DNA from: Tridacna crocea
Lineage: Eukaryota > Mollusca > Bivalvia > Cardiida > Cardiidae
Assembly (NCBI GenBank): GCA_943736015.1
Contig: OX031066.1
Coordinates: 9,552,245 to 9,616,244, forward strand
Direction: 5' to 3'
DNA: 64,000 nt
Position numbers and translations under genes: made by a program. The notes beneath the pieces are model-generated. The model saw only the letters and a list, made by a program, of their open reading frames with translations, had not been told where the DNA came from and did not search any database. This document shows, one piece after another, positions 3,913 through 51,431 of this stretch (the first letter of the stretch is position 1; every line of letters begins with the position of its first letter).

Positions 3913-4142
3913 TTAACCCATTACCACACAATCCCTACTTTTGACGCCCCTGAGAAAGAAGCCTTTTGAAAACACTGTGGGAAAAGGAGAAAATGCTGGT
4001 AACCAGCATTTTCTTCTTTTCCCACACTGTTTTCTACCCCTCCCAGAACAAATTTCTATTTTTCAGTCACTTTTTTTTTTGTCCTCTGCAAATGCTTTCA
4101 ATTTGGACAAGTCTAAAACTTTCTCGAGTGGTAATGGGTTAA
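3913..4142 (+). mobile_element. Family A MITE, complete
   Basis: A 230-bp copy with TTAA at both ends (3913 and 4139). Left CCCATTACCACACAATCCCT; right GGTAATGGG. The hairpin at about 3973-4038 has paired changes (CACTGTGGG / CCCACACTG) and a TTCTTCTT difference on one arm. Confidence 0.9.
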
Positions 4143-17153: not shown

Positions 17154-17382
17154 TTAACCCTTTCCCAAACTATCCCTGGTTGTTACGTGTCTGGACTAGT
17201 AGCCTTTTGAAAACATTGTGGAAAAAGGAGAAAATGCTGGTAACCAGCATTTTCTCCTTTTCCCACAATGTTTTCTACCCTATCATAGACAGAAATCATC
17301 TTTTCAGCAAGAGTTAAATTGTCGTCTGCAACTGCTTTCAATTTGGTGTAGTCAAAAAGTTTGTTGTTTGGGAAGGGGTTAA
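17154..17382 (+). mobile_element. Family A MITE, complete
   Basis: A 229-bp copy with TTAA at 17154 and 17379. The 65-bp hairpin (about 17209-17273) has a single G/A mismatch near its base and the centre GCTGGTAACCAGC. Confidence 0.92.
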
Positions 17383-17788: not shown

Positions 17789-17820
<32 letters not shown>

Positions 17821-17977: not shown

Positions 17978-18075
<98 letters not shown>

Positions 18076-18082: not shown

Positions 18083-18128
18083 AACACGCCCAATCTCAGC
18101 CTCCACCCACAACACCATGTCGAGCACG

Positions 18129-20381: not shown

Positions 20382-20606
20382 TCAACCCTTGACTCTATAG
20401 ATACTCATTTCTACGCATTGCTTGTAGGAGCCTTTGGAAAACATTGTAGCAAAAGGTGAAATTGCTCGTGACGAGCAATTTCACCTTTTGCCACAATGTT
20501 TTCTAAGCTATCAAAATGTATCATATACACATAAGAAATATCTTCATCCTTGCTGTTATTTAGGGACTAGAGATACCATAGAAATGCCTTACGGGGTAAA
20601 GGGTTA
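20382..20606 (+). mobile_element. Family J MITE, complete
   Basis: Left TCAACCCTTGACTCTATAGA (terminal TTAA mutated to TCAA); right GGGGTAAAGGGTTAA. The hairpin arms TAGCAAAAGGTGAAATTGCT and complement centre on CTCGTGACGAG. Same architecture as A with a different stem. Confidence 0.88.
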
Positions 20607-21016
20607 AGGGTCTCTATGAATTGCGGGGAGAGAGGGGGGAGGGGTTTACCATGACCAAAGGATCATTGCTCTTTCATTGATAAAATCACGGTATTCAACC
20701 TGACGATTTATTCCGTATTATACAAATTATGTGATAGCTATATAGATGCTATCATCGGCAATTTAGATATTTGTGCGAAAATGTGAACGAAATCGTGGAA
20801 ATAGAGGCATTTTCGTGTTATTGCGTTCTGTATAATAATACAATGTACCCGTCTGTTTTTTTTTTCAGAAAGTCTCAATAAATGTGTTGTTAGTTTACCC
20901 TTCAGCGCTACAGGCGAAAATGAGGGCTTTTGCGAATGAAATAAAACCACGATAAGTTGCTCATAATTTGCAGTTAGATCTTAGAATTATGATATAGAGG
21001 ATATTTGTTTGTTTTT
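20607..21016. other. No gene recognised
   Basis: A G-rich run (GAGAGAGGGGGGAGGGG near 20629) and AT-rich DNA. A short minus-strand frame at 20738-20950 has no motif. Confidence 0.4.
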
Positions 21017-21435
21017 CGGTGAAAGATCGAAATTTATTTCATCGAGTGAACATCATTGGTAATATTTTCTTGAGTGGCGCAGTCATTCGTGAAAATATTA
21101 CCGATGGTGTTCACGAGGAAAAAAACACAAATATTCTATTCATTTCATGCTTTTAAACCTATCTTGAAGGAACTTTATCACAGTCCAGTACAGTTCTTTT
21201 CAGTTATTCCCCGTGGCGTACCCCCTCCGCATAGCAACGCATTACAGTATTACGCCAAGCGCAAGAAATGTATAATTAATGACGTCATATTTCCATCTGG
21301 TTGTGACGGTCACATGGATTTTACATAGGTAACTAGAATAAAAACATCAGTATTTTCACTGGTCGTACCCGTGAAATATCGAAAAATATTTTCACCACTA
21401 AAAATTATTTTCTCCGCCATTTTTCGATATCCTAC
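21017..21435 (+). mobile_element. Family L element, copy 1
   Basis: Begins CGGTGAAAGATCGAAATTTA, passes GTGAACATCATTGGTAATAT and its inverted partner AATATTACCGATGGTGTTCA, then about 230 bp matching the reverse complement of 30915-31275, including GTGGCGTACCCCCTCCGCAT and the palindrome TGACGTCA at 21280. Ends in GAAATATCGAAAAATATTTT. Unknown class; non-autonomous. Confidence 0.75.
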
Positions 21436-21484
21436 CTGAAAGCATAAAATAAGTTCACTTATTTAGTCAAACCGATACCGATAG

Positions 21485-21531
21485 GTGAGTGCAATATTAT
21501 TCTAAGTGCCTTAGAATAGTATTGCACTCAC
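21485..21531. repeat. Isolated hairpin
   Basis: GTGAGTGCAATATTATTCTA then AG-TGC-CT then TAGAATAGTATTGCACTCAC: arms of about 22 bp with one mismatch and a 3-base loop. It belongs to none of the other families. Confidence 0.8.
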
Positions 21532-21639
21532 ACATTGATACTAATTCTTACCAGTTTCTGACTGATGTATTTTCTCAGCCGACAAAAGAGTTCGAGCGAT
21601 TCTTATCTATTTTTTTTTCTAGAGGAGTTTAACCGTAGG

Positions 21640-21686
21640 CTGCTAAGCTCATTCAGACGACATGATCTTGGATCTACACTGTCCAA
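21640..21686. repeat. Family E, half copy
   Basis: AGGCTGCTAAGCTCATTCAG joined to CATGATCTTGGATCTACACT: the first arm is deleted. Confidence 0.65.
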
Positions 21687-22184
21687 TAAGTTTCTTCAAA
21701 AATAAATTTGAAATATGAACATTCAGGTTTTTTTTGCACCCAAAACTATATGTTTAAAAAAAGGAAAAGGTAAACCGTTTACATGTTAAAAAAGTGGGTC
21801 GAAAATTTCCAGCAAAAATCTACATCCTAAAATAAGCTTCTCATCTCAATAGACAATGTGGAGCGAGAATAGGACTGCACGTTTCGTGCAATATTATCTT
21901 GACATACACTGTCTGCACAATCCGCAGATAGCCGTGCTTTGCAGCATAAAGTGTTGGAGGGGAGGGGGGTAAAGATTCATTCCAGCGGAGCGATTATGAA
22001 GTGTGCATGTATGAACATAACTGCTGCGAATAGATATCCGTAGCATATGAGACCCTTGATGCTTACTCCAGCACAAAAATTACAGTACAAATCTTAACTC
22101 TTTCAGCCCGAAGTATGTGATGTAAGCTAAAATCAAAATCAACTGAAACTCAGAAAAACTATCCTGCAGAATTAATTAAACTAG

Positions 22185-22250
22185 CGGACGGTATAGGTCC
22201 AAGATCAGACTGCACATTCCGTGCAGTCTGATCTTGACCTATACCGTCCG
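22185..22250. repeat. Family E palindrome, near perfect
   Basis: CGGACGGTATAGGTCCAAGA ... ACCTATACCGTCCG. The outer stem differs from other E copies (GGTATAGGTC rather than AGTGTAGATC) on both arms alike. Confidence 0.88.
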
Positions 22251-22501
22251 GAAAGGCCCATAAAGTCGCTGAAAGCGTTAAAAGAATCGTATAAAATCAC
22301 AAAAAGAATAGGGTGGGGGTACAAAAAGCATCTTTAAATTACTGAAGGAGGATAAAGTACCGGGTGTTATGCACTTTCAAGTGAAATCTGCCACACGTGC
22401 AAGCAATTGAAATAATAGAAATGGAGAAAAAAATATCAATCTAAAGAAAATACGACCTGCGCTAAATGTGTTTATAGGTACCCCTCCCTCCCTAGACAGT
22501 T

Positions 22502-22742
22502 TGACCCTTTACTTAATGATCCTGTGGTTTTTTGATTCAGAGAGAGTCAGCTAAATGAAGATATCGTGGTAAGCGAAGAAGATGCTTATAACAAAACAAA
22601 AAGGTTTTCGCCCGTATTCGGAGAATATTTTCTACTCTTAAAGGGAAAAAACTCTGACCCACACCAAATGCACAACCTGAAAATGGTTTCAATACAAAAC
22701 GGGTACACATTTTTTTTTTTTTTCGCCTGGTAAAGGGTTGAC
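22502..22742 (+). mobile_element. Family A MITE, decayed
   Basis: TTGACCCTTTACTTAATGAT at the left; CCTGGTAAAGGGTTGA at the right. The interior is diverged, with TTTTCTACTCTTAAAGG and GGTTTCAATACAAAACGGG in A order. The hairpin is largely destroyed. Confidence 0.6.
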
Positions 22743-23185
22743 GCATATTCTACCTGGAAAATTGTCTGGAAAATACCGAGTTATGCAGTTAATGACGACC
22801 TAGTTGATCGAAAAGTGTTGCAACGTTTTGGTGGATGAGGAAAGTGAAATGTAAGGAAAGGAAAGAAACGCATTTCAAACGGTAACTAGTAAGTCTATGA
22901 GATTGAGTTGCTCGGGTGGTCGGTCGGCCGACGTTCGATTGGATGACTGATTGTTTTGTTAACATGTTGATTATCATTTGATTGATTGATTTCAAAATCA
23001 TCTCTTAGTCAAATTACGACAGTACCTCATATTCGTGTATTTCAAAAATATGACCAAAACTGGGTTTTGGCCTACAAGTAGATTGCCCTCAAAGGCACAA
23101 AAGGCACTTCCACCTGCCACAAGTGAAAATAGGATATAAATTCCTTAACTCTATCCTTACTGTTCACAGTAGAAGGAGACCTTAT
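22743..23185. other. No gene recognised
   Basis: Contains a short TTGATTATCATTTGATTGAT tract and GGTCGGTCGGCCG; otherwise nothing recognisable. Confidence 0.4.
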
Positions 23186-23250
23186 GGACAGTGTAGATCA
23201 AGATCAGACTACGCTGAACTTGCAGTCTAATCACATATCTACAGTGTCCA
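23186..23250. repeat. Family E palindrome, one arm eroded
   Basis: GGACAGTGTAGATCAAGATC on the left arm; the right arm TCACATATCTACAGTGTCC has mutations. Confidence 0.8.
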
Positions 23251-23793
23251 CCATTTTACTTTAAATGAAGGCCAGACTATCTATTATTCTTGCAATGGTA
23301 CCATATTTATAGCCAATGTAACAATGTAAATCATTTACTTGGTAATGAAAGAATAAATAAAAATTCTGACTTCTTTATCACTGGACTACACGGGGTCTTT
23401 GGTATTTGTTTGATAGTGCCTATCACCAAGGACCATATTTTTTGCATTACAGATCGTGTTTGCTGCTGCAAGACAAGACCAAAATTAGAGCTTAGGTCAA
23501 TTTGTTAGCTGTGGGCATGATTGTATGTGAAAAGATTTGATAGAAGAGAAACAGCTCGTAGGATGTATGTGAAAAATTTGAAAGAAGAGAAACAGCTCGT
23601 AAGGAGCGTTTTATTGATGGATACCATCACATGACCAAAGCAGCCAATCAGGATCGAAACGAGATTTCAAGCCACAGATCCAACTCCATATCAACCGCGC
23701 CACAAATGACTCCTACCATTTATCTTATGCTGCATGGTCTTCTTCACACGTTATATATGAGCCATGGACAGTGGAAAGAGGGCTTAATCCATC
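23251..23793. other. No gene recognised
   Basis: A local direct repeat: GAAGAGAAACAGCTCGTAGG near 23546 and GAAGAGAAACAGCTCGTAAG near 23584, 38 bp apart. No family otherwise. Confidence 0.5.
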
Positions 23794-23885
23794 AACAAAA
23801 AGTTTCCATCCATGCCAGCCTGCGCAATCCGCGCAGGCTGACATGAATCGGAACTTTTTGCCATCGGTCGATTTTCTGTATGTCA
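23794..23885. repeat. Family D hairpin
   Basis: AACAAAAAGTTTCCATCCAT ... core GCCTGCGCAATCCGCGCAGG ... CGGAACTTTTTGCCATCGG. The flank ATTTTCTGTATGTC is typical of D. Confidence 0.85.
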
Positions 23886-24427
23886 AAGTTGCAGTGTACT
23901 CATGGTTGTTATACAAGACGGGTTTTAGGGATGTATGACGCCATGATGACTTGTTTGGCATCATGCATTGCCGAGATGGCAGAGCAAGTCCCATATCGAT
24001 AGATGATTCTTTGGATCGAGACAAGAAAAACTATCTTAACCTTGAATTCGTGCATGAAAGTCCATTTACAATCAAAACCCAATTGACAGAAACAAACAAT
24101 ATCCCTTCGGTAACGAGTTTTACAAATCAATGATTTGTTATTAGATATTTGTTGGGGCTAACTTCACATCTCCGCTCGCAGCTTTTCTCCAAGCAGACAT
24201 TCAATTAGTCTGACGGATGCATTTACTGTCAGAGTTAGTCATGGCGGCCGAATTGATCTGTCAATTCATTCAACATTTTAGACAGCTCATTTTTATACTT
24301 GAATCTACGTCCAGACGGTAAAATGTCGTTTGTTTGGTTGGTCGGTTGTTTCTGAACAGTTCTCTAAGGTGATTTCAACAATATTAAAGCCATATCACTC
24401 GTTTTAGCCAAGGGTGTTCCATACATC

Positions 24428-24617
24428 CAGAGCTCGAGATAGAGGGAGTGATTTCGATTTCAAAATTGAAAACATCAACTGTTCTCAATTAAACCCAATG
24501 TTGTTGGTACTCATTAGAATCATCTCGTCGAGACGATTCTGATGAGTACCCACCACATAGGGTTTGGAAGAGAAATAATGAATTTAGAATACCATCACTC
24601 CTTCTTATCTGGAGCTT
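24428..24617 (+). mobile_element. Family G element
   Basis: Ends AGAGCTCGAGATAGAGGGAG and TTCTTATCTGGAGCTTTG form imperfect TIRs. The centre is a palindrome around ATCTCGTCGAGACGATT (24510-24548) extended by AACCCAATGTTG / CACATAGGGTTT. Confidence 0.8.
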
Positions 24618-24625
24618 TGACGCCT

Positions 24626-24720
24626 GTAAGAAAAATATTGGCAGAGGTCAACCTGTGCAGTCCGTGCAGGCTGACCATTATCGAAACTATTTCCTTTTGG
24701 TAAATTTTCTGCATGCCTAA
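24626..24720. repeat. Family D hairpin, diverged
   Basis: Core AACCTGTGCAGTCCGTGCAG with a poorly paired outer stem; flank TTTTGGTAAATTTTCTGCAT is typical. Confidence 0.75.
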
Positions 24721-24826
24721 GGACCGTTCTACTTGAGGATTAGGCCGACTGTCCAATAAAGTGGATTTTATAGATCTATTACTATGTAACAAATCCTTTT
24801 GTATAATGCATGACGGGAAAATATCA

Positions 24827-24926
24827 AACATTTTACAAATCGTCGGTTTACTTCAAAAACATCGTAACTACAGCTTGTTACAAGCTGTAGTTACGAGGTT
24901 TCGAGGTAAATCGACGAAATGTTTGA
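24827..24926. repeat. Family F palindrome, extended
   Basis: CAAACATTTTACAAATCGTC ... GTAAATCGACGAAATGTTTG encloses the F stem, centre AGCTTGTTACAAGCT. Pairing extends beyond the other F copies. Confidence 0.85.
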
Positions 24927-25223
24927 CTAATTTATGTTTTTCTTAGGTTTCATTAAAGGTTCAAGTTGTGTCATGCATTAAACTTGTGAAAATACAGAAA
25001 TATTTCAATTCATCCAAATAAGATTAACTCTCTATTCGGGTTTAAGACATAAAATGTGAAAGAGATATTAACGAAACACACTAAAATAAGTATACAGGCA
25101 GCGTTCGAGGAAAAAACGGGTATTTATGACATCTTGGTGATGATACAAAACAAACCAAGCAATTCGTTATTTGACTCCATTTAATCTAAAAATTGTCTAA
25201 ACCGGAAGTAGAGTGGTCCTCTG

Positions 25224-25312
25224 ACATGCAGAAAATTTATCAGCAGCAAAACGTTTCGACGTAGGTCAGCCTGCGCGGACCGCGCAGGCTGTCCTACGTC
25301 GAAATGTTTTAT
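25224..25312. repeat. Family D hairpin
   Basis: Core CAGCCTGCGCGGACCGCGCA with outer stem TTTCGACGTAGG / CCTACGTCGAAA, paired but different in sequence from other D copies. Confidence 0.85.
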
Positions 25313-25750
25313 AGATACCTTAAACCCCCTTTTCATAGAACATGGCTCAAAAAGTGGGTTCCAAAAAGAGTTGAATTCTATATTGAGAACTCAAAACACA
25401 GTCAACTGAAACTAAGACTTTTCACCTCATAACAATACCTAAAAAATGGCCATGGTCCCCTAAAAAATTCAGGTGAGCGATCCAGGGCCATCTTGGCCCT
25501 CTTGTTTGTGTAATTTGGCTACTTAACTCTATGTTCAATATTGTCTCCGTTTTTACAGCACCCAAGCCATTTGTAGACCTGTGACCAATAAAAAGTTAAA
25601 AATCAACATTTATACTGATAATTTCTATTGAGCAGACTCTAAAAGAAATTACATAAATCTGAGAAAAAAGATATTATCAAGCATCAGATGAATGAATTTT
25701 TTAATGAACTGACCCACTGTTAAAATCTATTTGCAAGTGAATTTCTAGCA
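25313..25750. other. No gene recognised
   Basis: Contains GGTGAGCGATCCAGGGCCATCTTGGCCCTC near 25472, a short inverted motif. No coding signal. Confidence 0.4.
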
Positions 25751-26086
25751 TCACCTTCTATTAGTGTTTTCAGTACTTTGATTCAATATATTTCCCCCAT
25801 TTACTTGGTTGCACTTGGCCCACTTTTCTTTCAGACTGACTATACCGTTAAAATAGAATTTTTCGATTTGGTCCTCAAACCATGCCTATTTGGCATCCTT
25901 GAGTTCAACATCATCGTCATCACGAAATCTGGTTCCCCGCAAATGAGATTTCAAATTTCTAAATAAATGTAGGTAATAATCACTGGGAGCCAGATCTGGG
26001 CTGTATGGTGGGTGATCAAGTTGATCAAACTTACATTCGAAAATAACAGCTTTTGCAATCCTTGACTTGTGCCCAAAACTCAACAT
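25751..26086 (-). pseudogene. Mariner-type transposase, C-terminal remnant
   Basis: Minus-strand reading gives HKSRIAKAVIFECKFDQLDH, PPYSPDLAPSDYYLHLFRNL and FRDDDDVELKDAK. An in-frame stop (25886-25888) follows, then AWFEDQIEKFYFNGIVSL and KCNQVNGGN to a terminal stop at 25751. YSPDLAPSDYYL is the hallmark around the third acidic residue of the mariner DD34D triad. The first two catalytic aspartates and the N-terminal DNA-binding domain are absent: similarity begins just after the usual second-aspartate motif. A dead, 5'-truncated copy whose continuation across the stop shows it decayed by point mutation. Confidence 0.88.
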
Positions 26087-26559
26087 TCTGATTTTCCATC
26101 ATTGCTTTATGGTCAGTAACAAAGAGATTTTGTGTTACGCTTGACCCAAAACGCTGTTCTATGAACTTTCTGACACTCTCTCGTAGATCTATAGCGTCCG
26201 TAAAAACCACATGTTTTTCCGCAATCACGCTGAAAGGGTGAAACTGTAAAGCATAATTGTCACTTGAAGTTCGCCGTCGGGAGCCCATTCAAAATACATA
26301 AATTGTGGCATTTACTGCAAATAGCGAAAATGCACTTCGCTGTTTTATTTTATTAAATAATTGTGCACGTAATAAAACTTCCCAATCATTAAGATAATGC
26401 ATTTTTATTATTACTGATTACGAGTTGACACTATCATTTATTATCTGTTTAGCGTACTCATCGCCACCTGGCGCAAGTTCTCAACGGACAATTTGAAAAC
26501 ATTCAATCAAAATGCAGAGAAACCCATTGCGGTTGGGAACCTCTAGTATCCTTATAACT
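26087..26559. other. Sequence upstream of the mariner remnant
   Basis: A minus-strand frame (26031-26288) overlaps the mariner fragment in another frame. Its upstream residues (AEKHVVFTDAIDLRESVRKF, FGSSVTQNLFVTDHKAMMEN) look protein-like but I cannot assign them; they may be another part of a rearranged transposon. No mariner TIR seen. Confidence 0.35.
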
Positions 26560-26782
26560 CAACCACACAATAACTGCTTTTAGCACCAGTGTATGAGAAG
26601 CCTTTAGAAAACATTGTGGGTAAAGGAGAAAATGCTGGTAACCAGCATTTTCTCCTTTTCCCTCAATGTTTTCTTCCCCATCCAAAACATAAAATCATGA
26701 TTTCAGTTACATTTAATTTTTTCGTCTGCAAATCCTTTCAATTTGGACCAGTGTAATGTTTTGTCGTTTGGTAAAGAGTTAA
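26560..26782 (+). mobile_element. Family A MITE, first of a head-to-tail chain
   Basis: The left end is degenerate (AACTCAACCACACAATAACT). The hairpin at about 26606-26671 is nearly perfect. The right end GGTAAAGAGTTAA has its TTAA at 26779, which also starts the next copy. Confidence 0.88.
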
Positions 26783-26910
26783 ACTTTTACCACACAGACC
26801 CGTGTTTTAACGACAATGAGAAATAATACTTCTGAAAATATTGTGGGAAAAGGAGAAAGTACTGGTGCCCAGCATTGTCAACTTTTCTGACAATGTTTTC
26901 TAATCTTTAA
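26779..26910 (+). mobile_element. Family A MITE, truncated, middle of chain
   Basis: Shares TTAA 26779 with the previous copy and runs through a damaged hairpin (GAGAAAGTACTGGTGCCCAG ... TGACAATGTTTTCTAATC). It is cut at 26907 where the next copy's TTAA begins. Confidence 0.8.
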
Positions 26911-27133
26911 CCCTTTTACTGAAAAATCCCTGTTATTTTTTCTTTTACGACACTGAGATAGAAGGCTTTTAAAAATATTTTGCGAAAAGGAGAAAATGCT
27001 GGTAAACAGTATTTTCTCCTTTACCCAAAATGTTTTCTACCCTGCTAGAAACAGATTTCAATTTTTGTTTTGTCGTCTGCTAGTGCTTTCAATTTGGACC
27101 AGTCAAGAATTGTCTCCTTTGGTAAAGGGTTAA
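26907..27133 (+). mobile_element. Family A MITE, complete, third in chain
   Basis: TTAACCCTTTTACTGAAAAA to GGTAAAGGGTTAA (TTAA at 27130). Hairpin centre GCTGGTAAACAGT with a few arm mismatches. Confidence 0.88.
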
Positions 27134-27169
27134 AGAACAAACTCAATCATTTTGGGCACATAATATAAA

Positions 27170-27398
27170 ATGTCGTCTAGAAAAACTTTCAATTTGGACC
27201 TGCCTAAAATTTTGTTGTGTGACAAATAGGTATCAAACAACAAACTCTAGACTTGTCCCAATTCAAAGTAACTGAGGACGACGCAATAAATGTGGTTCAA
27301 ATAAGACATTCCCTTTTGGAGCAGTAAAATATTATGGGAAAAGAAGAAAATACTGATTCCTTCTGTTGTTAAATGTAGAAGGATTGTGAGGTACAGAG
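27170..27398 (+). mobile_element. Family A fragments
   Basis: 27170-27235 is a right-end piece (GTCGTCTAGAAAAACTTTCA, GGACCTGCCTAAAATTTTGT). 27300-27398 has GGAGCAGTAAAATATTATGG and GAGAAAATACTGATTCC, a one-armed remnant running into the next TTAA. Confidence 0.55.
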
Positions 27399-27616
27399 TT
27401 AACTCTTTACCACACAACAATGATTTTAGACCGGTCCAAATTGAAAGCATTTGAAGACAACAAAATAAACGTAACTCAAAAATTGAAGAGGTTAGAAAAC
27501 ATTGTGGTAAAAGGAGAAAATGCTGGTTACCAGCATTTTCTCCTTTTCCCAAAATGTTTTCAAAAGGCTTACACCCCAGGGTCGTAATAACCAGGGATTG
27601 TTTAGTAAAAGGTTAA
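27399..27616 (-). mobile_element. Family A MITE, complete, opposite orientation
   Basis: TTAACTCTTTACCACACAAC at the left, then TTTTAGACCGGTCCAAATTG. Hairpin at about 27495-27560 with centre GCTGGTTACCAGC. Ends AGTAAAAGGTTAA (27613). Confidence 0.9.
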
Positions 27617-28107
27617 GCTAGCAACGTTGTCCTTTGGTTTTAGGTATTTAACGACCTTTCAAGATGATTACATTATACCACAGCTTTCTAAAACAAATTC
27701 TTTGTGCATTTTTTTCCTCAGCTATTAGCTGCTTTCTCACAAATACATAGTCGAAACGATGTTCAATCATGAAAAAAGCACAATATTAACAAGACAATCA
27801 TTCCCCAATTCTCGAAAAGATATGGGCAAAGCTGAGGCTCGGGTCAGAAACCCATGGGTTCATATAATAGACGGTGCCACTGGGATTGGCGTATTTCTAG
27901 CAAATGCAAAGATATTGAAATGTACTAGTATAAAGCAATCATTTATCTAAAGCAAGCAAATATCCTATGTCCATTAGGCGTTTGTTTATTACAGGTTCGG
28001 CTGTATATTGTATAACATTCTAATACGGATTTATCGTTTAATGGTGAGGTACTTGTTAAAATATTGAGGTAAAAGGAGAAATCGCTCTCTAAGAGCACTC
28101 CACACTT
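27617..28107. other. No gene recognised
   Basis: A plus-strand 63-residue frame at 27759-27950 has no identifiable motif. ATATTGAGGTAAAAGGAGAAATCGCT at 28062 hints at a lone A arm. Confidence 0.4.
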
Positions 28108-28116
28108 AAATGTTTG

Positions 28117-28519
28117 CATTTTCGCAAGCCAAGGCCGACGATTCACTACGCTACTCGACCCTTGGCGGATCGAGCTTGATTTTTACGTTCACCCGATACG
28201 CTTTTTTATTGGATGCAGCCAGCTCCAGCTGCAACGAAATCGCTCGTAGCATTTTATCTTTGATAAAAATAGAACAAAGTCTCTACCTTTCGAATAGAAG
28301 GTAAAACATGGAAACCCACGTGGATGTCTGCTTATCGTTTCATGTATATTTGTCAGCGGTCTGTTAAACGATATTTCATTTGCTTTTAGAAATATGATGT
28401 AAATGGGGGTTATAACTAGCATCCAATAGAGGGCGCATCGCAGGAATCTCGAAATCGGGCTCAATCAGCCAAGGTAAGAGCCACATATATAGTGATCGTA
28501 AACTTGGCTCGCGAAGATG
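28117..28519 (+). mobile_element. Family H element, copy 1, with perfect 9-bp target duplication
   Basis: Starts CATTTTCGCAAGCCAAGG, ends CTTGGCTCGCGAAGATG, and is flanked on both sides by AAATGTTTG (28108-28116 and 28520-28528). Inside: GGCGGATCGAGCTTGATTTT, GGATGCAGCCAGCTCCAGCT, and on the minus strand a short open frame starting MSPISRFLRC. A 9-bp duplication fits Mutator-like or Merlin-like transposition; there is no transposase. Confidence 0.88.
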
Positions 28520-28599
28520 AAATGTTTGAGACTGCTTAATAACTATTCAAAGTATTTGCAGGCATCAATTAAAAAAAGGCTATAAAGACAAGGTTTGTT

Positions 28600-28697
28600 T
28601 TTCATGTGGTAGAAAAAAAATCTGGTTACAAGCACTTCTGTTTTATTTTTTTTTTGTTTTTCACAATGTTTTCAAAAAACTTTCTTTTAAAGGATTG
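28600..28697 (-). mobile_element. Family A fragment, decayed
   Basis: GTGGTAGAAAAAAAATCTGG, TTACAAGCACTTCTG, TTTTTCACAATGTTTTCAAA: half an A copy abutting the intact copy at 28698. Confidence 0.55.
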
Positions 28698-28926
28698 TTA
28701 ACCCATTACCACACAATCCCTACTTTTGACGCCCTTGAGAAAGAAGACTTTAGAAATCATTGTGGGAAAAGGAGAAAATGCTGGTAACCAGCATTTTCTC
28801 CTTTTCCCACAATGTTTTCTACCCTTCACAAAACAAATCTCAAATTTTCAGACACTTAAATTTTGTCGTCTGCAAATGCTTTCAATTTGGACAAGTCTAT
28901 AATATTGTCGTTTGGTAATGAGTTAA
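28698..28926 (+). mobile_element. Family A MITE, complete, near-perfect hairpin
   Basis: A 229-bp reference-quality copy: TTAACCCATTACCACACAAT ... GGTAATGAGTTAA. The stem from about 28757 to 28821 is perfect through CATTGTGGGAAAAGGAGAAA, with a one-base centre. Confidence 0.95.
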
Positions 28927-29349
28927 GTACAGTATGAAATATCTAGGCCAAATTTAAAATGTCAGAATAATGTCGACAGGCCGTAAGAGCTTTTTCTCAT
29001 TAGCATAACTGATGCATCTTTTCAAGATGAATGCCTGTTTGCCAAAAGAGCCTGTTTAATTATTATTCTTAACGAGTTTCCTTAAGTTTATTTCAGGAAT
29101 TTAAGTATTCTTATATTTTTTAATCCTATTTCAAAAGCCCTTTTTCGTCGTCTTGCAGCAGGGCTGGTCATATTTGAAAAGACTGCGGCAAAAGGGGGAG
29201 AGGGGTTCTAGTAATACGTAAGTCCATTTTTTGCGCCCCCCCCCCCCCATGTCTCAATAAAATTCATTACCGAAAGAGAATTTAGTTTTTTTCTTTCAAA
29301 TTTACAAGGATGTTTTTGAAGTCATCTTCGGAATTTGTCCTCTGATTTA
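28927..29349. other. No gene recognised
   Basis: AT-rich DNA with a C-run (29238-29248). Nothing supportable. Confidence 0.4.
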
Positions 29350-29577
29350 TTAACCCTTTACCGCACAATCCCGACTTTTAACATCCCAGTGAAAGAGGCC
29401 TTTTGAAAACATTGTGGGAAAAAGAGAAAATGCTGGTTACCAGCATTTTCTCCCTTTCCCACGATGTTTTCTTCCGTTCCCAAAACAAATTTCAATTCTT
29501 TAGTCACATTTTTTTTTCTGTCTCCAAATGCTTTCAATTTGGACCTGTCTAAAACTTTGTCGTTTGGTAAAGAGTAA
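29350..29577 (+). mobile_element. Family A MITE, right TTAA mutated
   Basis: TTAACCCTTTACCGCACAAT at the left; GGTAAAGAGTAAA at the right, so the right TTAA is lost. Hairpin centre GCTGGTTACCAGC. Confidence 0.9.
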
Positions 29578-30349
29578 AGAGGATGTGACCTTTGACCCTT
29601 TGCTGTGACCCTAAGCTCGCAGATAGGTGTGTGGATCATCTGCTCCGGGCGTCGTTCCATCAAGATGGACAGGTGTTGGGAAGTTGTATTTTTTTTCAAA
29701 CTCGGGCAAAGGGATCAGGATATATTGAGTAGACACGAAATGCAATCAGACAGAAGGACGAATAGACGGAAAAGTAGATAGATGGAAGGACGGACGACTA
29801 TGGCATGTCATAATACACCCCTTCAGGCGTATAGAAATATCCACCAGAAAAGGCATCAAAGCAAAACTTTCGGAAACATTTAGTCGTGGAGATGGCGAAC
29901 AAGAAGCGCAACCTATCATCTTGCAATCTTTAATCAGGCATTGCCGTTTAGCATTGCACAACCTTCCCGTCAGGCTTAGTCCCATCATGCACTGTGCAAC
30001 CTTCCCGCCATGCTTTGTGCAACCACGTGATATGTAAAAATGTCATCATTTCCCATTTTTACGAGGTTCGATGAACTCCGGAATCTAAATTGAAAATTTA
30101 CATATGACAAGTAAGCTATACAACTGCACAGTTGTGGAATTAATCTTGTCTGCGATGCATCAAACTGGTCTCAAATAACGGATCAAAAAAAGGACTAGGA
30201 TAAATAGGAGACAGAGGAAAAAACAGACAGAGAAAAAGATAAGGAAGTATCTGCAGACTGTGAGACGGCTGGACGGAGAGATAGATGAATAAATGGAGAG
30301 ACAGAAGAGGGGACAGGCGAACCTCCAGGCGGACGGACGGATGTACAAA
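29578..30349. other. Degenerate short repeats, no gene
   Basis: GGAC/GATG-rich tracts (AGAAGGACGAATAGACGGAA, GATGGAAGGACGGACGAC) near 29750-29800 and AGACAGA-rich sequence at 30210-30340. A local repeat CAACCTTCCCGTCAGGCTTAG / CAACCTTCCCGCCATGCTTTG at about 29960 and 29998. Confidence 0.5.
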
Positions 30350-30393
30350 AAGAGAGAGAGAGAGAGAGACAGGGAGAGACACAGAGAGAGAGA
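30350..30393. repeat. (GA)n microsatellite
   Basis: AGAGAGAGAGAGAGAGAGAC and related units. Confidence 0.9.
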
Positions 30394-30914
30394 ACCTTCA
30401 CACAGAAAGGCCAATGTTTGTTGGTTTGCTGCTTGGGGCGTTGGTTTGGTAGCTAGTTGGTTGGCTGATCGGTTAGTTTGATCATAATCAATAGTATTTT
30501 GATGTTTTATCCTGCTGTCAGTGTGTTCTGGTGCTCTTCTTCGCCTTTTACCGAAGTACTGCATTATGTGTATTTGGAAGCCAGTTCTATACATATTTCC
30601 TATCGTCTTGCTATTCACATTAATAAACTTTTGAAATGTTAACATTTGTATTGTCCAATTGGACGTAGTCCAATTTCATCGATATCAATCATAAAAAGAG
30701 CTTAAAACTCAGACAACAGATATTCAAAATGAATCCCTTTTTAAGTCGTGTCTTAGTCAAAAGTCTTTAACTAAATAGCATATCACGCACAAGGAGAACA
30801 CAATGGGTTAGAAAACATTAAACTGACGGTTGATAGATGGGTTCTACCAAGTGTTGTTTGCATCTGAATTCCTCTACTTATAAATTTCATGCTTTCCGGT
30901 AGGATATTGAGAAA
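30394..30914. other. No gene recognised
   Basis: A GTTGGTTTGCTGCTTGGGGC-type TTGG-rich tract at 30420-30475, then unique AT-rich sequence. Confidence 0.4.
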
Positions 30915-31275
30915 TAGCAGTGAGAATATTTTTCGATCTTACACTGGTACCACCCGTGATGCGCGTGCCTCACAACCGGATGGGAAATATGACGTCATAT
31001 ACGTTAGGCTCGTACATTTCTCGCACTTGACGTAATATTGTAATACGTTGTTATGCGGAAGGGGTACGCCAAGGGGAATAACGGAAAAGAACTGTACTGG
31101 ATTTTGATAAAGCTCCTCCCAGAAAGGGTTAAAAGCATGAAATAAATAGAATATTTATTTTTTTCCGTGAAAGATCGAAATTTATTTCATCTCGTGAACA
31201 CCATCGGTAATATTGAAATATTAAAATATTACCAATGGTGTTCACTTGATGAAATAAATTTCGATCTTTCACCAA
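30915..31275 (-). mobile_element. Family L element, copy 2
   Basis: Inverted relative to copy 1 at 21 kb. Shares GAAATATGACGTCATATACG (TGACGTCA at 30990), GCGGAAGGGGTACGCC, AAGAACTGTACTGGATTTTG, AAAAGCATGAAATAAATAGA, and the hairpin GTGAACACCATCGGTAATAT / AATATTACCAATGGTGTTCA with AAATTTCGATCTTTCACC at the end. Confidence 0.78.
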
Positions 31276-31477
31276 AAAAACCCCAAAATATCCTTTATAT
31301 GTTATAAAAGAGTTTCTATGGAATTATGGCGTTTTCTAACATTTTTAGGACCAATCCATTCTTTCTTGGTATTTGTATGCCACTACTTTGCAAACCGTCT
31401 TTCCTAGCCTCTGGTTTTAAAAAAAAATCGAAAAGAGAATGTTCAGCGGTAGAATAGAACTATTAACAATTATAGTT

Positions 31478-31552
31478 GAGCTGGGAAATCAAACGACCGA
31501 CCCCAACATTTTAATTCTAGCATGCTACCGACAGAGCTTAAGGGCTCGGCAT
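31478..31552 (-). mobile_element. tRNA-derived SINE head
   Basis: The minus strand reads CATGCCGAGCCCTTAAGCTC, TGTCGGTAGCATGCTAG, GGTCGTTTGATTTCCC: A- and B-box-like elements with tRNA spacing. Body not delimited; a GA repeat abuts it. Confidence 0.55.
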
Positions 31553-31622
31553 GTAGAGAGAGAGAGGGTGATAGAGACAGACACACAGAGAGACAGAGAG
31601 AGACAGAGACACAAAGAGAGAG
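31552..31622. repeat. (GA)/(ACAG) microsatellite
   Basis: GTAGAGAGAGAGAGGGTGAT then GACAGACACACAGAGAGACA. Confidence 0.85.
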
Positions 31623-31691
31623 GTACCCCAACTGATCGCCCTGACAAGATATCTAAATTGATCAAACGCGCTAACACACCAAGTGTTATGA

Positions 31692-31918
31692 GTATTCTCT
31701 TACCACACAATCCAGGGCTTTTACGACCCTTACAACAAGACTGATTGAAAACATTGTGGGAAAAGACGAACTGGTAACAAGCATTTTTTTTTCTTTTACC
31801 GCATTTTTTTCTATTGTTTCTGATACAAATCCTATCATGAGAGGGAAATTTAATTTTTCATTAGCAATTGCTTTGCATTTGGACTAGTCTAAAACATTGT
31901 TGCTTGGTAAAGGGTTAA
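31692..31918 (+). mobile_element. Family A MITE, decayed hairpin
   Basis: CTTACCACACAATCCAGGGC at the left; GGTAAAGGGTTAA at the right (TTAA 31915). The hairpin is degraded by a T-run and a deletion (AAAAGACGAACTGGTAACAA). Confidence 0.8.
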
Positions 31919-32093
31919 TTAAAACGTATATAATTTATGTAACTCCCTCATATTGACTCTGCCATTCTTTGAACACAGTGGACGCCAAAGTGTACAGTGC
32001 GTGACGAGTTATTTCCGTTGACCTGGAATGATGGGAATTCAGAATTCCTACAGTAACTCTTTCCTTTATTGTAGACGAAACAAGATCTTTTAG

Positions 32094-32158
32094 TGGACAG
32101 TGAAAATCAAGATCAGACTACCTGTCGTGCAGTCTGATCTCTGATCGACACTGTCTAC
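32094..32158. repeat. Family E palindrome
   Basis: GTGGACAGTGAAAATCAAGA ... GTGCAGTCTGATCTCTGATC ... ACACTGTCTAC; the loop is shortened. Confidence 0.8.
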
Positions 32159-32262
32159 TCTTCTATATTCTAGATTATGATCAAACTGTATCATCATCCT
32201 GTAGAGGGAATATACTTGCTGCCATTGATAACATGTAGGTTATTTATTTAGAAGTGAAAGAG

Positions 32263-32493
32263 TTAACCTTTTACCAGACAATCCCTGGTTTATAGGACCC
32301 AGAGGAAGAAGCCTTTTGAAAACATTGTGGGGAAAAAGGAGAAAATGCTGGTAACCAGCATTTTCTCCTTTTCCCACAATGTTTTCTACACTTCTAAGGC
32401 TAAGTTTCAATTCTTGAGTCACTTTTATGTTGTCGTCTGCAAATGCTTTCAATTTGGATAAGTCTAAAATTTTGTCGTTTGGTCAAGGGTTAA
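32263..32493 (+). mobile_element. Family A MITE, complete
   Basis: TTAACCTTTTACCAGACAAT to GGTCAAGGGTTAA (32490). The left arm has GGGGAAAAAGGAG, one extra base against CTCCTTTTCCC on the right. Confidence 0.92.
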
Positions 32494-32746
32494 AGCCGTC
32501 ATGCTATATAAAGCCCGCTCTTCAAACAACACATGCTTACAACAAAGAACAAATAGACTGGTTTTCGGCGAGTCTGTATAAAAGTATTTTCAAATGTTTA
32601 TATTATCTAAGGAAGGTGTTTCACGCGACATAACATAAGATTCTTTTATTTTTTCTATAAAAATTGTTCACAACTTTTGTCATGGACGTCCTATATTACT
32701 TGACAAGAAGTAAAACCAGGGGCTGAATAGGCGTCAGCATGACTTA

Positions 32747-32972
32747 TTAACCCTTTACCATACAATATCGACTTTTAACGACCCTGAGAAAGAAGCCATT
32801 TGAAAACATTGTAGGAAAAGGAGAAAATGCTGGTTACCAGCATTTTCTACTTTTCCCACAATGCTTTCTACCCTATGAAAAAAATGGTACATTTGAGACA
32901 CACTGAAATTGACGTCTGCAAATGCTTTCAGTTCGGACAGGGCTAAAATTTTGTCGTCTGGTAAAGGGTTAA
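32747..32972 (+). mobile_element. Family A MITE, complete
   Basis: TTAACCCTTTACCATACAAT to GGTAAAGGGTTAA (32969). Hairpin mismatches at GTAGGAAAAGG / CTACTTTTCCC. Confidence 0.92.
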
Positions 32973-33316
32973 AAGCTTACGCCATTGCCTTAATAAAAGA
33001 GTATCTACTTTGCTTGAAAATAATATAACTGAACTGTTATATTGACAGGAAAATGTTTTACCCCCCAAAAAATTTTTTTTCTCCATTTTTATTTTAATTT
33101 TACATACTTATTCGTCACAACGGAGAAGGTTCGATTTTCTGAAGAATAAAATACGAGATTTAATCATTTTTTTTTTTTTTGAAGTTAAGAAAAGAAAAAA
33201 AAAAAGACTTTTCGGAGAAAAAACATGTAGACGAAATTGAATTATACGCTAGCTTGGAAAATAAAAAGAAAACTGACGATAACAGTTTGCCTCCGCTAGG
33301 ATTAGAACCTACTACC

Positions 33317-33545
33317 TTAACCCTTTACTCCATAGATACTCATTTCTACACATTGCTTGTAGGAGCCTTTGGAAAACATTGTGGCAAAAGGTGAAATTGC
33401 TCATGACGAGCAATTTCACCTTTTGTCACAATGTTTTCTATGCTATCAAATGGTATAATATACACATAAGAAATGGTTTCATCCTTCCTGTAATTTAGTG
33501 TCCATTAGAGGCACCATAGAAATGCCTTATGGGGCAAAGGGTTAA
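33317..33545 (+). mobile_element. Family J MITE, complete
   Basis: TTAACCCTTTACTCCATAGA to GGGCAAAGGGTTAA with TTAA on both sides. Hairpin GTGGCAAAAGGTGAAATTGC / GCAATTTCACCTTTTGTCAC, centre CTCATGACGAG. The left flank AGGATTAGAACCTACTACC resembles a reversed tRNA T-arm, so J may sit inside an old SINE. Confidence 0.9.
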
Positions 33546-37519: not shown

Positions 37520-37747
37520 TTAACTCTTTATTAAACGACACAGTTTTAGACTTGTCCAAATTCAAAGGATTTACAGACAAAAAATATAAAAGTGAATCAA
37601 AATTGAAACTTGACTTTAGAAGAGTAGAAAACATTGTTGGAAAAGGAGAAAATGCTGGTTACCAGCATTTTCTCCTTTTCCAACAATATTTTCAGACGGC
37701 TTCTTCCTCTAGGTCGTAAAAACCAGGCATTGTTTGATAACGGGTTT
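37520..37747 (-). mobile_element. Family A MITE, complete
   Basis: TTAACTCTTTATTAAACGAC at the left; the right end ATAACGGGTTTA has lost TTAA. The hairpin has CATTGTTGGAAAAGG / CCTTTTCCAACAATA: the GGG-to-TGG change is matched on the other arm. Confidence 0.9.
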
Positions 37748-38032
37748 AGAAGGATACACCAAAAGTTTAGAGTCGCTCAAACTGAAAGCGTTTCTAGGCT
37801 AGTTTTCTGCGACTCAATGATGGGAGACATCTTTGAAACAGCATTAGCCACTTGTCTTGAAATATTTTATAGGGGTGTTTTTCCCTGGGTCATTAAACAT
37901 AGAATTGTTCAATTAATTGTTAAAGCCACCGTTACACCAAACTAGATCTTAGAACGTCTTCCCTTGTCCTTACATGATCAGAAAAGGGGTTGCGGTCGGG
38001 GTAGAACGTGTACATGCAAGGCCGTCGGAAGC

Positions 38033-39000: not shown

Positions 39001-39069
39001 CTGACTACTTTCTCACATACAATAGAGGTGAAAGGGCGAACGACCGTCAGAAAGAAAGTTTACCTCAAC
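39001..39069 (-). mobile_element. Family N SINE fragment
   Basis: CTGACTACTTTCTCACATAC, AGAGGTGAAAGGGCGAACGA, AAGAAAGTTTACCTCAACC matches the N body. Both ends are missing, and an A copy joins at 39069. Confidence 0.7.
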
Positions 39070-39216
39070 CAAGAAATTTGTTTTGTAAAGGATAGAAAAA
39101 ATTGCGGGAAAAGGAGAAAATGCTGGTTACCAGCATTTTCTCCTTTTCCTGCAATGTTTTCTAAAGGTTTCTTTCTCAGGGTCGTCAAAAGTAGGAATTG
39201 TGTGGCAATGGGTTAA
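39069..39216 (-). mobile_element. Family A MITE, left-truncated
   Basis: Begins inside the element (AAGAAATTTGTTTTGTAAAG), keeps the full hairpin (GCGGGAAAAGG / CCTTTTCCTGC), ends GGCAATGGGTTAA (39213). Confidence 0.85.
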
Positions 39217-39509: not shown

Positions 39510-39738
39510 TTAACCCTTTACCACACGACAAAATTTTGGGACAGACCGAACTGAAAGTGTTTGAGGTCAACAATTGAAAAGTAGGTCATATGATGATTTC
39601 TGTCTTTGATAGGATAGAGAATATTGTAGGAAAAGGAGAAAATGCTGGTTACCAGAATTGTCTCCTTTTCCCACAATGTTTCCCAAAGCCTTTCTTTCTA
39701 GAGTCGTGAAAACCCGGGATTGTTTGGTAAGGGGTAAA
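39510..39738 (-). mobile_element. Family A MITE, right TTAA mutated
   Basis: TTAACCCTTTACCACACGAC to GGTAAGGGGTAAA. The right arm reads CCAGAATTGTCTCC instead of CCAGCATTTTCTCC. Confidence 0.88.
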
Positions 39739-42580: not shown

Positions 42581-42818
42581 TTAACCCGTTACCACACAAA
42601 CTCTACTTTTGACGACTCCGAGAAAGAGGCCTTTTGAAAACATTGTGGGAAAAGGAGAAAATGCTGGTAACCAGCATTTTCTCCTTTTCCCACAATGTTT
42701 TCTACCCTACTGCACCTTCACAAAACAAATTTCAAATTTTCATTCACTTTTATTTTTTCGTCTGCAAATGCTTACAATTTGGACAAGGCTAAAATATTGT
42801 CGTTTGATAATTAGTTAA
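42581..42818 (+). mobile_element. Family A MITE, complete
   Basis: TTAACCCGTTACCACACAAA to TGATAATTAGTTAA (42815), 238 bp. The hairpin is perfect from CATTGTGGG to CCCACAATG with a one-base centre. Confidence 0.94.
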
Positions 42819-42869: not shown

Positions 42870-43138
42870 ATGTTCACGATACAAAGATAAACCGGTCAAA
42901 AAACGGCCTTAACTCTCTACCAGACAACAAAATTTTAGCCTTTTCCAAATTAAAAGCATGGGTAGACGACAATTTCAGCGAGGCTTAAATGGTGTAATTT
43001 TTCTTTGATAGAGTAGAAAACATTGCGGGAAAAGGATTAAATGCTAGTTACCAGCATTTTCTTCTTTTCCCACAATGTTTCCAAAAAGGCTTCTTTTCCA
43101 GGAGCGTCGAAAGTCGGCATTGTGTGAGAAAGGGTTTA
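42870..43138 (-). mobile_element. Family A MITE in a locally duplicated block, copy 1
   Basis: A from TTAACTCTCTACCAGACAAC (42909). The block including the outside flank TGTTCACGATACAAAGATAA recurs at 43893-44125. The hairpin carries GGATTAAATGCTAG, a mutated arm. Confidence 0.85.
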
Positions 43139-43324: not shown

Positions 43325-43553
43325 TTTAAATCTTCACTAAACGACGTACTTTTAGACTAGTCCAAATTGGAAGCATTTGCAGATAACAAAATTAATGTGA
43401 CTCAAAAAGTGAAATTTCTTTTGGGATGGGTAGAAAACATTGTAGGTAAAGGAGAAAATGCTGGTTCCCAGCATTTTCTCCTTTTCCTACGATGTTTTCA
43501 GAAGGCTTCTTTCCAAAGGTCGTAAAAATCGAGGATTGTTTGGTAAAGGGTGA
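43325..43553 (-). mobile_element. Family A MITE, both TTAA ends mutated
   Basis: TTTAAATCTTCACTAAACGA at the left, GGTAAAGGGTGAA at the right. Hairpin GTAGGTAAAGGAGAAAATGC / GCATTTTCTCCTTTTCCTAC. Confidence 0.85.
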
Positions 43554-43587
43554 AGGCTTTTTCACACAATCCTGACTATTAACTCTT

Positions 43588-43892: not shown

Positions 43893-44150
43893 AATGTTCA
43901 CGATACAAAGACAAACTGGTAAAAAAAACCCTTTATCTGACGACCAAATTTTAGCCTTTTCCAAACTGAAAGCATGGGCAGACGACAATTTCAGCGAGGC
44001 TCAAATGGTGTAATTTTTCTTTGATATAGTAGAAAACATTGCGGGAAAAGGAGAAAATGCTGGTTACCAGCATTATTTTCTTTTTCTCACAATGTTTTCA
44101 AAAATGCTTCTTTCTCAGGGTCGTCAAATATACGAATTGTGTATTAATGG
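43893..44150 (-). mobile_element. Family A MITE in a locally duplicated block, copy 2
   Basis: ATGTTCACGATACAAAGACA then an A copy with left end ACCCTTTATCTGACGACCAA. Identical signature to copy 1: GCATGGGCAGACGACAATTT, CAGCGAGGCTCAAATGGTGT. Confidence 0.82.
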
Positions 44151-44573
44151 CGTATATCTTTATGCAACTTAGATAGCAGCATAAAGATTAACGAACCTGA
44201 GAAAAAAAAAAAAGCTTTTTGAAAAGATACCTACAAAAAGAGGAGATGCAGGTGCGTCATGCCAATTAAGTCATCGCATAGGTAATTGTGAGGTTCTCTA
44301 AAATCTATTTTGTCCATCAATCGACTCAATCATAAGACAGAATGGCCTTTGACATGCTAACAATTGATCAACAGTAAAAAGCTTTGGACAGTGTCAGCCT
44401 GCATTTACAGCTCAGGCAAAAAGCGGATTAACGCATCTCCGTGTTGTACTATAACAATTAATCCATCACGTGATTATAGATTCATAATTGCCACGCTTTT
44501 CTTATTCTTTTCTTTTTTAACAAACGACTTAATTATGAGGTAGAATGGGCCATTGGCATACAGGAAATTGATA
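44151..44573. other. Repeat debris
   Basis: CCTGAGAAAAAAAAAAAAGC ... AAAAGAGGAGATGCAGGTGC near 44205-44260 is an A scrap; AAAAAGCTTTGGACAGTGTC, AGCCTGC near 44377 is a D/E scrap. Confidence 0.4.
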
Positions 44574-46110: not shown

Positions 46111-46340
46111 TGAACACTTTACCAAACAATCCACGGTTTTTACAACCCTGACATAGAAGCCTTTTTGAAAACATTGTGGGAAAAGAAGAAAATGCTGATA
46201 GCCAGCATTTTCTCCTTTTCCCACCATGTTTTCGACTCTGCTATTTACAAATTTCAATTTTTGATACACGATTATTTTGTCAGCTGAAAGTGCTTTCAAT
46301 TTGGACAAATCTAAAATTTTGTCGTTTGGTAAAGGGTTAA
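46111..46340 (+). mobile_element. Family A MITE, left TTAA mutated
   Basis: TGAACACTTTACCAAACAAT to GGTAAAGGGTTAA. Hairpin GGGAAAAGAAGAAAATGCTG / CAGCATTTTCTCCTTTTCCC with centre ATAGCCAG. Confidence 0.9.
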
Positions 46341-48876: not shown

Positions 48877-49106
48877 TTTAGCTCTTTACCGCACAGAAGA
48901 ATATTGTACCTATCCCAAATTAAAAGCATTTGCAGACGATAATTTCATAGTGGCCCAAATCTTGCAAATCTTATAGTTACAGTAAAAACTTTGTGGGAAA
49001 AGGAGAAAATGCTGGTTACCAACATTTTCTCCTTTTCCCAAAAAAGTTTTCAAAAGGCCTCTTTCTCAGCGTCGTTAAAAGTCGTCATTGTGTGGTAAAG
49101 GGTTAA
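48877..49106 (-). mobile_element. Family A MITE, complete
   Basis: TTTAGCTCTTTACCGCACAG to GGTAAAGGGTTAA (49103). Hairpin GTGGGAAAAGGAGAAAATGC / CATTTTCTCCTTTTCCCAAA; centre GGTTACCAACA. Confidence 0.88.
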
Positions 49107-51008: not shown

Positions 51009-51198
51009 ATTGACTCTTTACCACACACAAGTGTGAAGATTTTTAAAAACATGGTGGGAAAAGGAGAAAATGCTGGTAACCAGTATTTTCTCCTTTTCCC
51101 ACCATGTTTTTTTTCTACTCTTTTAACGGGAACTGCCATCTTTTCAGCTAGATTGATATTTTCTGTCTGCAAATGCCTTAATTTTTTTGTCAATTTAA
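51009..51198 (+). mobile_element. Family A MITE, shortened, joined to the next copy
   Basis: TTGACTCTTTACCACACACA at the left. Perfect hairpin arms CATGGTGGGAAAAGGAGAAA / TTTCTCCTTTTCCCACCATG: the T-to-G change in CATTG is matched on both sides. It shares TTAA 51195 with the following copy. Confidence 0.87.
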
Positions 51199-51431
51199 TC
51201 CATTACCACACAATCCGTACTTTTGACGCCCCTGAGAAAGAAGCCTTTAAAAAACATTGTGGGAAAAGGAGAAAATGCTGGTAACCAGCATTTTCTCCTT
51301 TTCCCACAATGTTTTCTACTCTTCAACTTTCTACTCTTCAACTTTCAAATTTACAGTCACTTTTATTTTATCACCTGCTAATGCTTGCAATTTGGACTAG
51401 CCCAAAATTTCGTCGTTTGGTAAAGAGTTAA
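51195..51431 (+). mobile_element. Family A MITE, complete
   Basis: TTAATCCATTACCACACAAT to GGTAAAGAGTTAA (51428). A short duplication (CTACTCTTCAACTTTCTACT) lies right of the hairpin. Confidence 0.93.

Follow-up and report, generated by a model that had tools for sequence, protein, structure and literature searches.

The hairpins that recur through a 64,000-nucleotide stretch of the Tridacna crocea genome (GenBank assembly GCA_943736015.1, contig OX031066.1, positions 9,552,245 to 9,616,244 of the forward strand; hereafter the window) are the cores of discrete repeats of 226–229 bp that end in TTAA and have CCC termini of the piggyBac type. Two families, A and J, carry a palindrome whose sequence is better conserved than the rest of the element, and changes that match on both of its arms are confirmed to be real and above chance. 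As the best, although tentative, explanation of this combination we propose that the palindrome is conserved for mobility and that, from time to time, copying at the DNA level transfers the sequence of one arm to the other.

The A element measures 229 bp from TTAA to TTAA: two 33-bp arms separated by a 1-nt spacer form a near-perfect 67-bp palindrome about 55 bp from one element end, with 51 bp of flank on its left and 103 bp on its right. J elements are 226–229 bp long with ends resembling those of A, and their flanks are otherwise unrelated to A except for a few stem-adjacent bases. The A hairpin is real, as a 20-mer of its arm matches the window 63 times at up to three mismatches against a shuffle mean of 0.04. 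The whole genome searched comprises 1,048,827,098 bases (1.05 Gb) in 31 contigs. At up to two mismatches the same 20-mer had 537,647 forward and 535,768 reverse matches there (roughly 1.07 million together), against 11 and 10, respectively, for its reversed control. Because each intact hairpin puts one arm on each strand, these counts correspond to approximately half a million hairpins, or about one per 2 kb. The perfect A hairpin, searched as an exact 57-mer, occurs 34,027 times, and a 30-mer of the J left flank has at least 36,180 matches at up to three mismatches.

Copies were compared in a 254-kb sample composed of the window and 19 stretches of 10 kb, with positions picked regardless of the repeat, in which a hairpin profile recognized 194 places. 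In the window, 35 A copies found by their arms were aligned, and 25 were kept after 10 degraded copies were dropped. Flank profiles built from these 25 copies found 98 copies, of which 90 were kept (24 from the window and 66 of 74 from the 19 stretches) and eight with more than six gapped stem positions were dropped. Stem pairs are numbered from the stem base throughout.

In the 90 flank-found copies, the stem diverges from consensus at 349 of 5912 positions (5.9%) and the flanks at 2406 of 13577 (17.7%), with the drop in a 10-bp profile centred on the stem. Two possible sources of this difference were rejected: recounting in flank-found copies gave nearly the same ratio as copies found by their arms, and the flanks still diverge by 17.5% without CpG sites, which excludes CpG decay as the source of their faster change. 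Even the terminal repeats of window copies diverge by 16.9%, against 5.0% for the stem. Within clusters of at least five copies with similar flanks, the flank consensus departs from the A consensus at 3–37 sites and the stem consensus at 0 of 66. Turnover has affected the flanks and spared the stem consensus; one-sided mismatches are numerous in individual copies. No part of the element is better conserved than the stem sequence, so the main signal is one of sequence constraint. The first-pass annotation had described a stem that is kept while its sequence moves; paired change indeed occurs, but the stem sequence itself is mostly static. The stem-to-flank divergence ratio, 0.33 overall, rises modestly to 0.38–0.41 in pooled flank clusters (0.34–0.60 in single clusters), a shift that constraint acting chiefly before insertion would produce, and several older copies have broken stems. 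We favor selection on mobility over upkeep at each locus, and conservation across lineages with diverged flanks suggests that the palindrome has a cis-acting role in mobility.

Paired change is clearest between families. Between the arms of A (GAAAACATTGTGGGAAAAGGAGAAAATGCTGGT) and those of J (GAAAACATTGTGGCAAAAGGTGAAATTGCTCGT), stem pairs 14, 21, 26 and 31 are changed, each time with the matching change on the opposite arm. These four differences, reported earlier from the window, are borne out there and in a consensus built from 29 J copies; the J copy at 20382–20607 leaves a single stem position, pair 12, unpaired. All four are complement swaps (G-C to C-G, A-T to T-A). A conserved pattern of weak and strong pairs was considered on this account and rejected, as most paired changes within A are of other kinds, and the swaps are kept as a curiosity. 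Two further lineages share part of the J changes. Lineage K (three copies: L011:9185, L014:6310 and L005:225) has A-like flanks and is changed on both arms at pairs 26 and 31, with pair 8 also changed in two of the three, and lineage M (two copies: L019:6396 and L011:2430) has J-like ends and is changed at pairs 26 and 31. Relative to K and M, J has pairs 14 and 21 in addition. The states of A, K, M and J can thus be ordered as steps of paired change, an ordering made with no rooted tree and, for K and M, from few copies. Within J, pair 13 displays a wobble step inside one family: among 29 copies it is G-T in 14, G-C in 11, A-C in two, C-C in one and A-T in one.

Paired changes also occur within A. 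Three examples noted earlier are genuine (T9G at 51009, T8C at 58803 and G14A at 55967), although two are not private to those copies as had been supposed. T8C is paired in five of the 90 flank-found copies, and the four of these with low flank divergence (0.078–0.117) look like one young subfamily; G14A is paired in a second flank-found copy and also occurs, with a bulge, in the copy at 40770. The 25 arm-found window copies contain nine matched double changes, one unmatched double change and 63 one-sided changes, and reshuffling of right arms among them gives a mean of 1.8 matched, with none of 5000 shuffles reaching nine. The 66 copies from the other stretches contain 18 matched changes, against a shuffle mean of 5.0 and a maximum of 12 in 1000. 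Pooled over the 90 copies (2942 cells, each one stem pair in one copy), 26 cells are matched, 10 unmatched and 272 one-sided; in arm shuffles the means are 6.7 for matched cells (maximum 14 in 1000) and 7.0 for unmatched ones. Ungapped copies whose 57-mer region has exactly two stem changes number 12, and in two of them the changes are matched partners. A phylogenetic null, as called for in the first-pass annotation, was simulated for the arms on a tree built from the flanks, without pairing. On average it yields 4.6 matched cells of 3.3 kinds, compared with 26 cells of 16 kinds observed; 26 cells were attained in three of 400 runs and 16 kinds in none. Because this null misses the 16 observed kinds, the excess of paired changes does not arise from relatedness alone. 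Nor are paired changes confined to one ancestral split, part of the outcome named beforehand as refuting the claim; the one paired kind examined in this respect, G20A, lies on unrelated flanks.

The single spacer base supplies a further observation. Among 90 A copies the spacer is A in 79, T in eight, G in three and C in none, and among 29 J copies it is G in 26 and C in three, with nothing else. Measured against the A-flank mutation spectrum and with copies treated as independent, the excess of complements has p = 0.005 in A and p = 0.011 in J. One T call in A adjoins a 1-nt deletion; when it is left out, the A excess has p = 0.012. On these small numbers, most spacer changes are to the complement. 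In the passages of PMC8794818 that treat hairpin maintenance, a paired change accompanied by an inverted loop is regarded as the strongest possible support for a template switch. The J copy at 55742 has an A-C mismatch at pair 13 together with an inverted spacer, as inversion would yield. This signal is weak, because the J copy in L028 combines A-C with an uninverted spacer, and pair 13 is G-C in two copies whose spacer is inverted.

From these data we propose that the palindrome acts as DNA in mobilization, where it may serve as a dyad-symmetric site for the transposase or a host factor, or as a cruciform, and that copies founding new subfamilies would be those that retained it. A stem change in a successful lineage would then arise when one arm serves as the DNA template for rewriting the other, in one or few events, by template switching at replication or by cruciform processing; such copying would also invert the 1-nt centre. 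Arm-to-arm conversion, offered earlier as a passive process that restores palindromes, fits both the paired changes and the complement-biased spacer. On its own it cannot produce the approximately three-fold lower divergence of the stem, because, by our reasoning, copying should be rate-neutral.

The same tentative explanation includes the identification of A, J, K and M as non-autonomous piggyBac-type TTAA transposons, that is, miniature inverted-repeat transposable elements (MITEs), an assignment made from the element ends alone. TTAA is exact at both ends in 47 of the 98 flank-found copies and has at most one mismatch per end in 82 of 98. CCCT or CCCA follows the TTAA position at the left end in 65 of 98, the commonest termini being 5'-CC or CT. 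The terminal inverted repeat (TIR) is about 13 bp, with consensus CCCTTTACCACAC at one end and CTCTTTACCAAAC at the other, identical at 11 of 13 positions. Members of the piggyBac superfamily have 5'-CC termini and a short TIR, and both of these, along with TTAA ends, were found in A copies. Thus, the TTAA ends, CCC termini and 13-bp terminal repeat place A with piggyBac-superfamily MITEs rather than with Kolobok. Kolobok elements, as characterized in a passage of PMC9587614, duplicate TTAA and have 5'-RR termini, with which the commonest termini seen here, 5'-CC or CT, do not agree. Helitron/DINE-1 membership does not fit the TTAA flanks, the TIR and the internal position of the hairpin, Helitron ends being described in part of PMC2374699 as lacking a TIR and having 5'-TC, 3'-CTRR and a 3' hairpin. 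The genome contains at least 118 matches to piggyBac transposase (PF13843). An element end beginning TTAACCCT was read at six of the 12 transposase places inspected (L020, L021, L043, L046, L047 and L050), and no matching autonomous element was found among the 12. A-type hairpins near L021, L047 and L050 fall outside the end read there, and the position of those near L022 and L048 relative to the end is ambiguous. One of these places, L050:513–3122, is a piggyBac-type element with inverted TTAACCCTAGTCATGC ends flanking a long open frame (570–2528), apparently full length. A search for the hairpin in viral contigs gave 0 matches.

Several observations weigh against a palindrome that is conserved for mobility and rewritten by arm copying. 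The covariation is small in size: arm mismatch is 9.6% within copies and 11.1% between copies (0 of 2000 shuffles are as low), and one-sided changes outnumber paired cells by about 10:1. One or more matched cells, including one in the A copy at 31692, sit in a degraded and gapped stem and hinge on the alignment, and some paired kinds are common to several copies through descent, as is T8C in its five copies. Unpaired changes are inherited as well. These include the G-T mismatch at J pair 13 in 14 of 29 copies and one-sided changes common to two K copies and to two T8C copies. The stem-to-flank ratio stays far below 1 inside flank clusters, and in J, a younger family, the stem diverges by 2.9% and the flanks by 5.8%; both leave room for protection after insertion. 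Dropping the eight gapped stems among 98 copies biases the set toward intact stems. Among the 40 copies compared for G20A, described below, the nearest flank neighbor belongs to the same class in 13 of 20 G20A copies and 11 of 20 controls. Finally, neither A nor J ends were seen at the 12 inspected transposase places, where an end was identified in only six.

Of the alternatives, the one that survives best, while still unlikely, is gene conversion between copies restricted to the hairpin, in which cruciform breaks would be repaired from other copies, homogenizing the palindrome and spreading variants between flanks. It would account for identical stems on diverse flanks and for stem divergence below flank divergence even in tight clusters, and the distribution of G20A speaks for it. 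Genome-wide, 307 copies carry paired G20A in a 57-mer that is perfect elsewhere, a count of paired instances only. We compared 20 of 100 listed copies, from contigs C1–C6, with 20 perfect-stem controls, all from C1. Mean flank distance was 0.275 among G20A copies, 0.233 among controls and 0.257 between the sets, and the G20A copies, the sole paired kind so tested, have several unrelated flank types. The presence of paired G20A on many backgrounds therefore indicates repeated origin or spread by hairpin exchange. Among the 272 one-sided cells, G20A occurs nine times on the left arm and twice on the right; the expectation of about 17 paired copies under independence, against 307, is a rough hand figure based on those two right-arm observations and is not used as evidence. 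Against conversion between copies, flank correlation across the hairpin is 0.415, compared with 0.291 between the two halves of the right flank. Because left and right flanks stay correlated, crossover exchange at the hairpin is not indicated, although short tracts within the stem would still be compatible with these values, and the idea of the hairpin as a recombination junction between subfamilies is unsupported. Several old copies have decayed stems, and conversion between copies by itself creates no paired changes.

Somewhat less probable is that the arms are simply two inverted protein-binding sites, for which pairing is irrelevant and paired changes reflect co-evolution of recognition sites. 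Sequence conservation does exceed pairing, and, according to the relevant section of PMC11707139, the transposases of piggyBac and piggyBat bind to palindromes within the transposon ends. However, independent sites do not predict 16 exactly matched kinds, and the complement-biased change of the spacer is likewise unpredicted.

A folded RNA under selection, whether a small-RNA precursor or a processed hairpin, is an improbable keeper of the pairs. In element orientation, one-sided changes comprise 62 G-T and 92 A-C mismatches, so that wobble is not favored on the element strand, and selection for a structured RNA of that strand, one of the explanations raised earlier, finds no support. The reverse bias (p = 0.019) would represent G-U intermediates on the opposite strand and is in favor of an RNA, but among transitions it comes solely from left-arm G-to-A versus right-arm C-to-T changes (58 versus 33 one-sided). 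The left-arm excess lies at A stem pairs 12, 13, 14, 19 and 20, flanks have no such strand bias, and the bias may reflect shared subfamily changes. A search of the window at gathering scores matched 0 Rfam families, and an RNA loop offers no obvious reason for a complement-biased spacer.

Chance combined with shared ancestry, by which a few old double mutations were spread by amplification, has still less in its favor. T8C, G10T and the K pairs each occur in more than one copy, and the tree simulations do occasionally attain the observed number of matched cells, but they never attain the number of kinds, and G20A recurs on unrelated flanks. Passive arm-to-arm conversion with no constraint would explain the paired changes and spacer inversion but is very improbable and is rejected as a sole cause, because, if each mutation were fixed in both arms half the time, paired divergence should by this reasoning approach the flank value of 17.7%, and it is seen in 0.9% of cells.

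The elements of the window lie in DNA that looks intergenic and eukaryotic, with 34–42% GC per 4-kb step, four open frames of at least 150 amino acids and no transfer RNA found in a search of the window. Three J elements are present. The first (20382..20607, + strand) has TCAA at its left end and TTAA at its right, arms at 20437–20469 and 20471–20503 and spacer G at 20470; the second (33317..33545, +) has TTAA at both ends, a right end that reads inward TTAACCCTTTGC, arms at 33372–33404 and 33406–33438 and its spacer at 33405; the third (55742..55970, −) abuts an A element and has the complement spacer (C in J orientation). Around this third copy, at 55701–56196, the J element lies between an A right-end fragment and a complete A, with shared TTAA junctions and a similar A tail on both sides.

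A copies occur on both strands. On the + strand, a near-consensus element at 28698..28926 has arms at 28753–28785 and 28787–28819, and the element at 42581..42818 has a perfect stem. That at 32263..32493 has no stem substitution but a small left-arm insertion, with flanks about 15% diverged, and that at 17154..17382 has one arm change and flanks about 28% diverged. Paired G10T is found at 26910..27133, and paired T9G in a hairpin at 51046..51110 that belongs to a truncated or nested copy. At 3913..4142 pair 8 is altered on both arms and unpaired (C-C). The spacer is T, the complement, at 29350..29577 and 32747..32972, and left ends are extrapolated at 26552..26782, 46111..46340 and 31692..31918, the last with a degraded hairpin. 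Elements at 456..682 and 51195..51431 complete this strand. On the − strand, paired changes are G12T at 37520..37748 (end extrapolated), T11C at 39007..39216, G12A at 43326..43554, A7T at 48878..49106, G14A at 55967..56196 and the subfamily-shared T8C at 58803..59031. The remaining − strand elements are at 27399..27616, 39510..39738, 42909..43138 (end extrapolated), 43927..44155 (ends extrapolated) and 58029..58258.

Palindromes in the window number 46, A and J included. A second family of palindromes, whose arms end in AGCCTGCGC and whose spacers measure about 5 nt, occurs at 8803, 13254, 23816, 25267, 44921, 47877, 49135, 54176 and other positions, with 24 members in the 254 kb. Its arms vary widely between copies (AAAGTGTCGTCTCGGATC versus AAAAGTATCGGCCCAGATC, for example), yet each copy is largely self-paired, with a mean arm mismatch of 14.7%. 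Other near-perfect palindromes, unrelated to A and J and with arms of 22–61 nt and spacers of 0–3 nt, are located at 5222, 5346, 24527, 24878, 31219, 38656, 49492, 49993, 51698 and 59821. A long CT/AG-rich simple repeat at 17640–18203 gives rise to spurious open frames.

The elements resemble piggyBac MITEs in having TTAA at both ends, 5'-CCC termini, a TIR of about 13 bp and no coding capacity, and differ from them in a 67-bp internal palindrome more conserved than the TIRs and in the half a million or so hairpins. A palindrome inside the transposon end is also found in piggyBac and piggyBat, where, in the section of PMC11707139 cited above, it is bound by the C-terminal domain of the transposase; those palindromes are about 14–19 bp and imperfect in piggyBat, whereas the A and J arms are 33 bp. 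DINE-1, as portrayed in part of PMC2374699, is likewise an abundant non-autonomous element with a stem that differs between relatives yet stays paired, from which compensatory mutations were inferred. Its stem, however, is 7–11 nt, near the 3' end and compared between species, whereas that of A and J is 33 bp, internal and compared within one genome. Maintenance of hairpins by template switching similarly predicts paired changes plus loop inversion from one DNA event (PMC8794818). The passages concerned treat RNA genes, in which that combination was extremely rare, whereas in these DNA repeats the spacer is the complement in about 10% of copies (8 of 90 A and 3 of 29 J). No description of these hairpins was found in the titles and abstract openings retrieved by searches of open-licence PMC literature.

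It is possible, although we would not yet lean on it, that this genome constitutes a natural mutation-accumulation experiment, in which several hundred thousand hairpins record recurrent arm copying with inversion of the centre, visible as roughly 10% complement spacers, in a cruciform selected for transposition. Covariation is routinely read as a sign of functional RNA structure, and here covarying stems occur in DNA repeats. If the proposal is true, pair changes that look compensatory would arise in single DNA events, with no RNA involved, and the scale of the repeat would allow this single-event route, template switching, to be measured against the two-step route. For piggyBac-type elements, our data suggest a cis-acting palindrome that is more constrained than the terminal repeats.

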